Shown here piece by piece: positions 4,781 through 33,371 of a stretch of 33,371 nucleotides of DNA. The position numbers were made by a program, and so were the translations under genes. Source of the DNA: Streptosporangiaceae bacterium (GTDB lineage: Bacteria > Actinomycetota > Actinomycetes > Streptosporangiales > Streptosporangiaceae); assembly GCA_025934635.1 (NCBI GenBank), contig JAICWX010000065.1, positions 1-33,371 of the forward strand, given 5' to 3'. Within the stretch, counting starts at the first letter, position 1; each line of letters starts with the position of its first letter. The notes beneath the pieces were generated by a model, which saw nothing but the letters and a program-made list of their open reading frames with translations, was not told the origin of the DNA and ran no database searches.

Positions 4781-4857
4781 TGGTAGCGGAGGCCGGACTT
4801 GAACCGGCGACACAGCGATTATGAGCCGCTTGCTCTGCCTGACTGAGCTACTCCGCC
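4781..4857 (-). tRNA. tRNA-Met (anticodon CAT), CCA encoded
   Basis: A cloverleaf folds on the minus strand. The acceptor stem is GGCGGAG with CTCCGCT (the first pair is a G-T wobble). The D arm is GCTC...GAGC. The anticodon stem AGCGG/TCGCT flanks the loop CTCATAA with anticodon CAT (plus-strand bases 4821-4823). The T arm is GCCGG-TTCAAGT-CCGGC, followed by discriminator A and an encoded CCA (4781-4783). The paired first base argues for an elongator rather than an initiator tRNA. A tRNA-Ile with CAT later modified to lysidine cannot be excluded by eye. It lies just upstream of rpmG on the same strand and may share its transcript. Confidence 0.94.
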
Positions 4858-27345: not shown

Positions 27346-27358
27346 GCAGCAACAGGCC

Positions 27359-27394
27359 GTTCGCGGCGGGCACCGGCCGGTGCCCGCCGCGAAC
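27359..27394. terminator. 36-bp perfect palindrome, probable bidirectional terminator
   Basis: A 16-bp arm (27359-27374, starting GTTCGCGGCGGG) pairs perfectly with 27379-27394 around GGCC. It lies between two convergent genes that end at 27345 (+) and 27418 (-). There is no T-run on either side. Such hairpins are common at gene ends in high-GC actinomycetes. Confidence 0.8.
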
Positions 27395-27417
27395 GCATGT
27401 ACGGGGACCGTCGCGGC

Positions 27418-27570
27418 TCAGGCGGGGGTGTAGCCGGCCGCCGCGAGCAGATGGCGGAGGTCGACGACCAGCTGGGCGTCGATGTCCTTGCCCTTCGGCG
27501 GATCGAAGATCTGGCGCAGCGTGTTCCGGTGGCGGTTGTCCAGGTGGGGTGACTCCGGCGAGGATGACAT
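27418..27570 (-). CDS. Small HLDNRHR-type protein, apparently internally shortened
   Basis: A 50-residue protein too short for usual cut-offs. It starts at ATG 27568-27570 with GGAAGGGAG about 5 bases upstream, a strong ribosome-binding site. The sequence starts SPHLDNRHRNTLRQIF and ends PPKGKDIDAQLVVDLRHLLAAAGY. As I recall the family, common actinobacterial relatives are about 85-95 residues long, with the same two ends and about 40 residues in between (NIEW...LLEAVG...KVTVG). Here the N-terminal and C-terminal parts are joined directly, so it looks like an in-frame internal deletion. Function of the family is unknown. The next gene, the divergent SDR, shows the same kind of loss. Confidence 0.72.
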   Translation of the reverse strand: MSSSPESPHLDNRHRNTLRQIFDPPKGKDIDAQLVVDLRHLLAAAGYTPA

Positions 27571-30255: not shown

Positions 30256-31023
30256 TTAAAGAACGGTGAGAATCTGCGGGCCGTCCTCGGTGATCGCCAC
30301 CGTGTGCTCGACGTGGGCGGCGCGACTGCCGTCGCCGCTGCGGATGGTCCAGCCGTCGCGGTCGATCCGGTACATGTCCCGGCCGCCGGCCAGGAACCAC
30401 GGCTCGATGGCGAGGACCAGGCCGGGGACGAGCCGGGGGCCGCGCCCGGGCGCTCCCTCGTTCGGGATGTGCGGGTCCTCGTGCATGGTCCGGCCGACAC
30501 CGTGGCCGCCGAAGTCGGTGCAGATCCCGTAGCCCCCCTGGCGCCCGGTCGTGCCGATGGCGGCCGAGATATCGCTGAGCCGGGCGCCGGGGACGGCCGC
30601 GGCGATGCCGGCCCGCAGGGCGTCCTGGGTAACGTCGATCAGCTTCGCGTCGGCCGGCTTCGCCGCCCCGATCGTGAAGGAGACCGCGGCGTCGCCGGTC
30701 CAGCCGTCGAGCACGGCCCCGCTGTCCACGCTGAGCAGGTCGCCGTCGGCCAGCTTCTTCCGGCCGGGGATGCCGTGCAGGGCGGCGTCGTTCACCGAGG
30801 TGCAGATGACCGCCGGGAACGGCACCGGGGCGAACCGGGGATGGTAGTCGAGGAACGGCGAGTAGGCGCCCGCGTCGGCCAGCACGTCCCGGGCGATCGC
30901 GTCTAGTTCGGACGTCCGCGTCCCGGCCTTGGCCTGGTCCTGGACGGCGGCCAGGATCCGCGCGACCACCTGGCCGGCGGCGCGCATCGCCTGGATCTCG
31001 CCTGCTGTCTTGATCTCGACCAC
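30256..31023 (-). CDS. map: Type I methionine aminopeptidase
   Basis: A 255-residue M24 metallopeptidase that removes N-terminal Met from new proteins. All five metal ligands are visible: Asp100 and Asp111 (SVDSGAVLDGWTGDAA), His174 (FGGHGVG), Glu207 (AIEPWF) and Glu239 (VEHTV), plus the substrate-side His83. It starts at GTG 31021-31023. The canonical actinobacterial copy sits with the ribosomal-protein/secY genes, so this could be a second map gene in a different setting. It is divergent from an XRE gene whose promoter lies in the 62-base gap. The stop lies only 3-4 bases beyond the TetR -35 region. Confidence 0.93.
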   Translation of the reverse strand: MVEIKTAGEIQAMRAAGQVVARILAAVQDQAKAGTRTSELDAIARDVLADAGAYSPFLDYHPRFAPVPFPAVICTSVNDAALHGIPGRKKLADGDLLSVDSGAVLDGWTGDAAVSFTIGAAKPADAKLIDVTQDALRAGIAAAVPGARLSDISAAIGTTGRQGGYGICTDFGGHGVGRTMHEDPHIPNEGAPGRGPRLVPGLVLAIEPWFLAGGRDMYRIDRDGWTIRSGDGSRAAHVEHTVAITEDGPQILTVL

Positions 31024-31050
31024 CCGGCCGCACCCCTATCCTCTCCCGGC

Positions 31051-31079
31051 TTGCGGGATAACTATACCGGTATTACTAT
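31051..31079 (+). promoter_or_regulatory. Leaderless promoter of the XRE gene with a palindrome in its spacer
   Basis: TTGCGG (31051-31056), 17-base spacer, TACTAT (31074-31079), then six bases to ATG 31086. The spacing fits a leaderless mRNA. The last ten bases of the spacer are the perfect palindrome ATACCGGTAT (31064-31073), and CGGTAT recurs at 31082-31087 over the start codon. The minus strand has TATAGT at 31061-31066, a possible -10 for map. Confidence 0.62.
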
Positions 31080-31085
31080 CACGGT

Positions 31086-31355
31086 ATGGTCCGTCCGCCC
31101 CTCACCCGCCTCGAGCACGAGCGGGGCCAGCGGCTGGGCATGCTGCTGCGCGAGGCGCGCGGGCCGCGCAGCATGGCCGATATCGCCGCCGTCTCCGGCG
31201 TTCCCGCGGAAACGCTGCGCAAGATCGAGACCGGCCGCATCGCCACCCCCGCCTTCTTCACCGTGGCCGCGCTGGCCGACGCGCTCGGCCTGTCCCTGGC
31301 CGAGATCGCCCGGGCCTGCGCCGGGTCACCGGGGAAGGCCGCGCTCAGCGCCTGA
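31086..31355 (+). CDS. Small XRE-family helix-turn-helix regulator
   Basis: An 89-residue protein that is little more than one Cro/C1-type domain: RLGMLLREARGPRSMADIAAVSGVPAETLRKIETGRIATPAFFTVAALADALGLSLAEIA covers helices 1-5, with the turn at SGVPAETLRKIE. There is no ribosome-binding site, and the promoter fits a leaderless transcript. The palindrome in its promoter is a likely target for its own product. It is divergent from map and upstream of the whiB-like gene in the same direction, so it may control either. Confidence 0.85.
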   Translation: MVRPPLTRLEHERGQRLGMLLREARGPRSMADIAAVSGVPAETLRKIETGRIATPAFFTVAALADALGLSLAEIARACAGSPGKAALSA

Positions 31356-31398
31356 GCGCGTTCACGACATAACGTGCCTGATCGCTTACGGAGGGAAT

Positions 31399-31416
31399 AT
31401 CAGCCGTACGGCTGAT
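31399..31416. promoter_or_regulatory. 18-bp perfect palindrome in the whiB7-like leader
   Basis: ATCAGCCGTACGGCTGAT is fully symmetrical. It lies just before the two hairpins described below, after GGAGGG (31390-31395). It could be a regulator site or, as RNA, an upstream pause hairpin. Confidence 0.6.
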
Positions 31417-31419
31417 GCC

Positions 31420-31463
31420 ATCCGGCCGGGTATGGGTGCAAACTATACGTGTCCGGATTTTTG
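31420..31463 (+). terminator. Candidate attenuator hairpin with T-run in the whiB7-like leader
   Basis: Bases 31420-31433 pair with 31446-31459 in one register: 12 pairs (one G-U), two internal mismatches and a 12-base loop. Five Ts end the arm and tail (31459-31463). It has the shape of an intrinsic terminator about 50 bases before the whiB start. Its 3' arm is also used by the competing hairpin 31453-31479. Confidence 0.6.
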
Positions 31464-31464
31464 A
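31432..31464 (+). CDS. Candidate 10-codon upstream ORF in the whiB7-like leader
   Basis: The ATG at 31432 reads MGANYTCPDF and stops at TGA 31462-31464. The ATG lies in the 5' arm of the putative terminator, and the stop lies right after its T-run, so translation would open the hairpin. The ribosome-binding site is poor. A second frame, ATG 31415 to TGA 31513 (32 codons), overlaps the whiB ATG by four bases and is an alternative leader ORF. Confidence 0.4.
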   Translation: MGANYTCPDF

Positions 31465-31479
31465 CGGGGAAATCCGGAG
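31453..31479 (+). promoter_or_regulatory. Competing (antiterminator-like) hairpin upstream of the whiB7-like gene
   Basis: TCCGGATTT (31453-31461) is exactly complementary to AAATCCGGA (31471-31479) with a 9-base loop. It uses the 3' arm and T-run of the hairpin at 31420-31463, so only one of the two can form. It ends about 30 bases before ATG 31510 and leaves the purine-rich GGGGGTGAAG free. Confidence 0.6.
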
Positions 31480-31509
31480 ACGGGATCCGTTTCACGGGGG
31501 TGAAGCGAC

Positions 31510-31794
31510 ATGACGAGCTATTCCCTGGCCACCTTGGCCCGGCGAGCCGCTGACCTGGGTGATCCGTTGCCTTGCCGCAACAACACGCAGCTGTGGTTCT
31601 CGGATCAGCCGGCCGACCTCGAGCTGGCCAAGGCCTGCTGCGAGGCGTGCCCGCTGCGCCGGTCGTGCCTGGCCGGCGCGGTCGAGCGCGGCGAGCCGTG
31701 CGGCGTCTGGGGTGGTGAGATCTTCGAGAAGGGCCGGATCGTCGCGTTCAAGCGGCCGCGCGGCCACCCGGGCCGGCAGGCCCGGGCGAGCTGA
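31510..31794 (+). CDS. whiB7: WhiB7-like Fe-S transcriptional regulator
   Basis: A 94-residue Wbl protein. Four cysteines for a 4Fe-4S cluster are in place: Cys22, then Cys44-xx-Cys47-x5-Cys53. The turn GVWGGE (65-70) is followed by IFEKGRIVAFKRPRGHPGR, close to the WhiB7 pattern with its AT-hook (RPRGRP in known WhiB7; here RPRGHP). WhiB7 switches on intrinsic antibiotic-resistance genes together with the main sigma factor. The extra Cys43 and Cys64 are unusual. GGGGGTGAAG is the ribosome-binding region. The leader of more than 100 bases looks like an attenuator with small ORFs, as known for mycobacterial whiB7. No resistance gene is adjacent. Confidence 0.85.
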   Translation: MTSYSLATLARRAADLGDPLPCRNNTQLWFSDQPADLELAKACCEACPLRRSCLAGAVERGEPCGVWGGEIFEKGRIVAFKRPRGHPGRQARAS

Positions 31795-31872
31795 CGCCAG
31801 CTTCTGGCTAACACCGGCCGCAAGCTGACGCTGGCTTGACCAGGATGGTCCCGGTGCCTGTTACTAGATCAC

Positions 31873-33371
<1,499 letters not shown>

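Follow-up and report, generated by a model that had tools for sequence, protein, structure and literature searches.

The XRE-whiB locus and its WhiB7-clade gene

The sequence analyzed here (the window) is a 33,371-nt contig of a Streptosporangiaceae bacterium. Within it, a leader (31356-31509) lies between the gene for an 89-aa XRE-type regulator (31086-31355) and the gene for a 94-aa WhiB protein (31510-31794), and the two genes are possibly cotranscribed. An ortholog of the WhiB gene is found in the genome of a near relative (G196, locus L092), with a protein 98% identical to that of the window. The features of the locus, with values for L092 where they apply, are as follows.

31086-31355, plus strand: XRE-type single-domain helix-turn-helix regulator, 89 aa (PF13560/PF01381); gene order kept in L092
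31391-31532, plus strand: conserved block of 142 nt that differs from L092 at 2 positions and extends into the first whiB codons
31399-31416, plus strand: hairpin or palindrome A, -9.8 kcal/mol (L092, -5.7, one pair lost)
31415-31513, plus strand: putative 32-codon ORF ending at an ATGA overlap with the whiB start, without a Shine-Dalgarno (SD) sequence at normal spacing
31420-31458, plus strand: hairpin B, terminator-like, -18.5 kcal/mol (L092, -14.5, one pair lost)
31432-31464, plus strand: putative 10-codon ORF, MGANYTCPDF (L092, MGAKYTCPDF), without an SD sequence
31449-31482, plus strand: hairpin C, -18.5 kcal/mol in the window and in L092, with a core stem at 31452-31460/31470-31478; cannot coexist with the outer stem of B
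31458-31462, plus strand: run of five T's after hairpin B, the first of which closes the B stem
31488-31507, plus strand: hairpin D, -9.9 kcal/mol in the window and in L092; includes the whiB SD sequence (31496-31503)
31510-31794, plus strand: WhiB7-clade protein, 94 aa, with an AT-hook-like tail, KRPRGHPGR (PF02467, PDB match, and tree)

An earlier note on this DNA had called the gene whiB7-like, and this assignment held: the best PDB match of the protein was Mtb WhiB7 (96.9 bits, versus at most 29.3 bits for other Wbl proteins), and the protein fell inside the WhiB7 part of a tree. In that tree, made from 51 rows picked by hand from the retrieved loci and proteins and from an alignment of only 76 columns, the window protein belonged to a clade of WhiB7-like paralogs (19 rows, support 99/96) together with those of L092 and L093 (the latter from genome G032) and metagenomic proteins, and the canonical copies from both G196 and G032 lay outside it. 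G196 also carries a canonical-looking WhiB7 (L120), which is 51% identical to the window protein. Judged by its sequence, the window gene is a WhiB7-clade paralog and not the canonical whiB7. A match at an E value of 1e-18 or better was present in 333 of 341 genomes of the host family, and five genomes had two.

Several further observations concern the locus and the family. A second, divergent WhiB7-type gene occurs in several host-family genomes (L121 to L124, L126, and L127, in G062, G063, and G194, and L093 in G032); by eye, a ParA-like gene adjoins L093. The AT-hook-like tail of the window protein (31750-31776) reads KRPRGHPGR, versus KRPRGRPRK in canonical WhiB7, and at this position of the RGHP tail the 42 aligned rows, including the window, have H (26), R (11), N (4), or S (1). 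Because H replaces R in this tail, the DNA contact of the window protein may differ. Immediately before and into the start of the XRE gene, at 31064-31088, lies ATACCGGTATTACTATCACGGTATG, identical in L092, which looks like a promoter or operator with a nearly leaderless XRE start.

Hairpins of the leader and their order of folding

The palindrome at 31399-31416 is perfect over 18 bp, as the earlier note had it, and is one of four perfect palindromes of at least 16 bp in the window; the longest of these, of 38 bp (27358-27395), lies upstream of an ORF starting at 27482 and is perhaps a strong terminator. The 14-position stem that had been described next to it was also found, with its 5' arm at 31420-31433 as given and its 3' arm at 31445-31458 rather than 31446-31459; it comprises 12 pairs, one of them G-U, and two mismatches. 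Likewise, the second stem is indeed a perfect one of 9 bp and occupies 31452-31460/31470-31478, both arms having been placed one base too high (31453-31461/31471-31479). The T-run follows the first stem at 31458-31462 as described, and since hairpin C takes the 3' arm of B together with this T-run, the two hairpins are mutually exclusive, as had been proposed. Hairpin D, over the whiB SD sequence, is an additional element that the earlier description did not contain.

The leader is 57% GC, versus 73% for the window, and it is structured beyond chance: the minimum free energy (MFE) of 31380-31520 had a z score of -4.27, and that of 31391-31512 had one of -3.75 (0 of 200 shuffles as good in each case); the L092 leader gave -2.51 (3 of 200 shuffles as good). 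Of 2,000 shuffles, only 1 produced a T-run hairpin that reached -18.5 kcal/mol and was overlapped by a downstream competitor that reached -15. Twelve TTTT runs occur on both strands of the window, and only the one behind hairpin B has a hairpin of -15 or better. In the retrieved loci, 51 of 411 such runs have one, and 14 of 411, a count that includes one site twice, have a hairpin and a downstream competitor that both reach -15, including sites in other whiB7 leaders. The window leader is not alone in carrying a strong hairpin behind a T-run hairpin. A consensus terminator scan listed no terminator in the window leader. By the T-tail criterion, hairpin B scores -17.4 in the window and -13.4 in L092, and T-tailed hairpins of -12 or better occur in 88 of 108 other WhiB7-type leaders with a median of -29.3, i.e., stronger than B. 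Comparison of upstream and downstream duplexes in these 88 leaders separated them poorly: the upstream duplex was the stronger one in 55 and the downstream duplex in 32, with 1 tie. No known Rfam family was found for the leader at gathering score, the three matches within 31340-31560 (E values up to 5) all being far below it; assignment to a known RNA family was rejected, the only gathering-score match in the window being a tRNA gene elsewhere (4784-4857, minus strand).

When growing transcripts of the window were folded from 31356, 31396, or 31415, hairpin B had a probability of 0.95 to 1.0 at 3' ends from 31458 to 31474; in L092, over the same ends, it had 0.63 to 0.92 (start 31356), 0.66 to 1.0 (31396), and 0.96 to 1.0 (31415). 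C displaced B at about 31476 to 31478 in both species. The 5' arm of B can also pair with the 90 nt upstream (-16.0; L092, -12.8), and this pairing left formation of B intact from these three starts, the only ones folded in this way; a transcript from 31430 cannot form B. Because the polymerase makes the T-run (31458-31462) before it makes the 3' arm of C (31470-31478), C cannot compete when termination is decided and could act only after read-through. The earlier note had seen here the logic of attenuation, which in its classical order does not apply: C lies downstream of the T-run, and B is unrivaled by C when the polymerase reaches the T-run. With starts at 31356, 31396, and 31415, the window leader showed no earlier-forming antiterminator that overlaps the terminator-like hairpin.

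Only 2 of 114 positions of 31396-31509 differ between the window and L092, versus 69 of 549 at fourfold sites of four neighboring genes (Fisher P = 1e-4 against the leader) and 21 of 180 at other intergenic bases (P = 1e-3 against the leader). Other stretches of the alignment are equally conserved (348 of 3,085 windows of 114 nt, the leader's own included, have 2 differences or fewer), and the point is therefore that the leader is conserved despite being noncoding. One substitution (31412) breaks a pair of A, taking it from -9.8 to -5.7; the other (31443) breaks a pair of B, which becomes 4 kcal/mol weaker (-18.5 to -14.5). C and D are unaltered. In this comparison of two near-identical sequences, each substitution costs one pair, and neither is compensated. 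Only 31443 falls inside the small ORFs, and because it changes the amino acid in both peptides, the constraint seems to act on the nucleic acid, yet B does not appear to be specially protected.

The leader was found only in the window and L092, in searches of 345 host-order genomes by DNA and of 341 host-family genomes by a covariance model with stricter filters. Besides G196, the DNA search gave only four matches of 20 to 26 nt (E values of 0.002 to 0.009 per genome), and the model, built from two sequences, gave four weak matches (E values of 0.004 to 0.04 per genome), which is no more than chance for 341 genomes. Across 20 sources, only the window and L092 scored above 17 bits, and 394 sampled genomes from the host class held no other match at an E value of 1e-31. 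The leader had no DNA match on plasmids, where close protein kin were not found either (17 records; the best, 60.7% identity over 64% of the query), and three loci on viral contigs were none of them close enough to yield a leader. Relatives from the scan of genome contigs were the best 80 of 584, so that close ones may be absent from this set, and homologs with about 80% identity (P0003 and others) entered the analysis as protein sequences. The paralog in G032 (L093, 61%) differs in its neighbors, and its leader is unrelated. In a literature search that covered few subscription journals, nothing was found on whiB7 in Streptosporangiaceae, and no such leader is described in the accessible parts of papers on whiB7 paralogs and leaders or on a second whiB7 (including PMC13236596 and PMC12421871).

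Small ORFs and predicted effects of a ribosome on them

Both small ORFs reported earlier are present, the 10-codon MGANYTCPDF at 31432-31464 and the 32-codon ORF at 31415-31513, whose stop overlaps the whiB start as ATGA. They are not beyond chance, however, by comparison with shuffled leaders: of 5,000 shuffles, 2,272 contained an ATG ORF of at least 8 codons, 845 had one of at least 20 codons that ran to the ATGA, and 242 had both. Neither ATG has a usable SD sequence, the strengths being -1.1 kcal/mol (32 codons) and -1.7 kcal/mol (10 codons), against a median of -3.3 at random positions and -12.7 for whiB; a GAGGG at 31391-31395 lies 19 nt from the ATG at 31415. GTG starts at 31436 (-4.5) and 31449 (-6.0) do better, yet not remarkably so, as 34% of random positions reach -5. 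A 137-aa frame ending with MGANYTCPDF was considered as an overlapping gene and rejected for an internal stop in L092.

We modeled a ribosome as a 27-nt mask on window transcripts from 31396. Masks at codons 1 and 2 of the 10-codon ORF, or at codons 1 to 8 of the 32-codon ORF, abolished B and left C at 0.99 to 1.0; because of this, a ribosome at either upstream ORF (uORF) start could act as an antiterminator. With a mask at codon 3 of the 10-codon ORF, the outer stem of B stayed at 1.0; masks at codons 4 to 11 of this ORF eliminated both B and C. A ribosome would also have little space in which to load before the polymerase reached the T-run. Control by ribosomes through the two uORFs, as in the attenuation logic of the earlier note, is possible but unsupported, given ATGs without a usable SD sequence and the abundance of such ORFs in shuffled leaders.

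In translation attenuation of the erm type, the SD sequence is sequestered by default, and a uORF stall refolds the RNA and frees it. Here, D had a probability of 0.95 to 1.0 in transcripts ending at 31512, but half of the whiB SD bases lie in its loop, and the mean unpaired probability of the SD sequence was 0.50 with no ribosome. Under 33 masks (the 11 codons of the 10-codon ORF and codons 1 to 22 of the 32-codon ORF) this value was 0.27 to 0.52, and none raised accessibility by more than 0.02 over the ribosome-free state, so that a stall freeing the whiB SD sequence was not seen. Where D was lost under a mask, the SD sequence paired elsewhere, for example, with the mask at the stop of the 10-codon ORF, where the probability of D depended on the end of the folded piece (0.05 with an end at 31512 and 0.01 with one at 31530).

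Candidate mechanisms and known attenuators

Our leading interpretation, which we hold tentatively, is that the WhiB7 paralog has a compact 5' leader that regulates it in cis, most likely as a transcription attenuator of unusual order. In a leader that we infer to be transcribed, hairpin B with its short U-tract would form first and halt or pause RNA polymerase. Were the 5' arm of B occupied, by a protein or by a ribosome that initiates at 31415 or 31432, the polymerase would pass, perhaps in response to translation stress; C would then capture the 3' arm of B and lock the read-through form, and D would temper whiB translation. This reading is supported by the conservation, by the significance of the fold, and by the rarity of B with an overlapping C among shuffles, as well as by the formation of B before C, the loss of B under masks at the uORF starts, and the uORF attenuators by which other WhiB7 genes are typically governed (PMC10727445). 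It is weakened because B is weaker than other WhiB7-type T-tailed hairpins and the terminator scan came back empty; because one of the two L092 substitutions costs B 4 kcal/mol and the uORF ATGs have no SD sequence; because masks at codon 3 keep the outer stem of B and those at codons 4 to 11 remove C too; and because the leader was found only in the window and L092.

We consider it somewhat unlikely that control instead acts on the DNA, with palindrome A as an operator (perhaps for the XRE regulator), B and its T-run ending the regulator transcript, and whiB having its own promoter, so that there would be no RNA switch. The palindrome is perfect over its 18 bp in the window and in L092 has one base changed, where it is the sole match to ATCAGCCNTACGGNTGAT in G196; the XRE gene lies directly upstream in both species, and B begins 65 nt past its stop codon. 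However, the motif at 31064-31088 before the XRE gene appears by eye to be unrelated to palindrome A, no sigma-70-type promoter was found in 30950-31900 (by a scan that is insensitive for actinobacteria), and conservation extends through C and D to 31532. Also unlikely, in our estimation, is control at the level of translation, whereby D would hide the whiB SD sequence and translation of the 32-codon ORF to the ATGA would open D and couple the two. The strong whiB SD sequence does lie inside D, which is predicted at high probability and unaltered in L092, and a mask at codons 22 to 32 of that ORF removes D; against this stand an ORF without an SD sequence in range (-1.1), the frequency of ORFs ending at the ATGA in shuffles, and the failure of stalls further upstream to free the whiB SD sequence (0.27 to 0.52 masked versus 0.50 unmasked). 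Reversed roles, with C as a U-poor terminator (or an RNA-processing hairpin), B as the antiterminator, and a ribosome on the 5' arm of B switching the gene off, would restore the classical topology and suit a C that matches or exceeds B in strength and is unaltered in L092, but GGATCCGTTTC after C holds no U-tract, and U-poor hairpin termination in mycobacteria is reported but disputed; we regard this reading as very improbable.

If the attenuator reading is true, two WhiB7-type regulators would coexist in one genome, each with a leader switch built independently of the other, the canonical one long and the second one compact; the locus would show duplication and rewiring of a stress response and would offer a test of whether a ribosome acts by covering the terminator. 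In attenuation of the pyrBI type, the position of the ribosome acts by covering the terminator, with no separate antiterminator. The window leader may be likened to it, as the ribosome would cover the terminator directly; the gene differs, and the window leader is not known to have a nucleotide-sensing U-run. A specific form of the attenuator, which we regard as doubtful, is a terminator-first device in which a tiny uORF starts in the 5' arm of the terminator, the ribosome blocks termination directly, and the downstream hairpin serves as a latch, i.e., a miniature sensor distinct from that of canonical whiB7.

A uORF-mediated transcription attenuator of canonical whiB7/wblC was reportedly described by Lee, Lee and Roe in 2022 (doi 10.1111/mmi.14834). 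In common with the canonical whiB7/wblC leaders, the window has a WhiB7-clade gene, a T-tailed leader hairpin, an overlapping alternative hairpin, and small ORFs. In contrast, its competing hairpin comes after the T-run rather than before it, its terminator-like hairpin is weaker, and its gene is a paralogous copy that accompanies a canonical whiB7, a gene pair as seen in G196. A uORF end motif derived here for the host family (SGP...P[VA], then stop) was matched in loose form in 23 of 115 WhiB7-type leaders, of which 21 read as true copies, all from the host family and including the canonical copy of G196 (L120), whose uORF ends SGPPRDREPV; the motif is absent from L092 and, by reading, from the two ORFs of the window, and other host-family WhiB7-type leaders also lack it. 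The uORF attenuator of whiB7/wblC is treated in PMC11550727, PMC10727445, and PMC4128351, the second of which describes WhiB7 genes as typically under such control. PMC4128351 places the transcription start of Mycobacterium marinum and M. bovis whiB7 about 350 nt upstream and gives the uORF a consensus SD sequence; the window leader is about 110 to 150 nt, and its uORF ATGs have none.

The suggestion of the earlier note that this is a different design from mycobacterial whiB7 can thus be kept for the parts, which differ, with the general idea being common to both, but not for the very short peptide as such, which is not new in itself because the Streptomyces ARE5 leaders (tiaA and are5sc) have translated uORFs of 3 to 9 codons (PMC12421871). 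The window and ARE5 leaders are alike in their very short uORFs and in predicted terminator/antiterminator alternatives; translation of the ARE5 uORFs and antibiotic stalling on them have been demonstrated by toeprinting, according to PMC12421871, whereas those of the window are putative.
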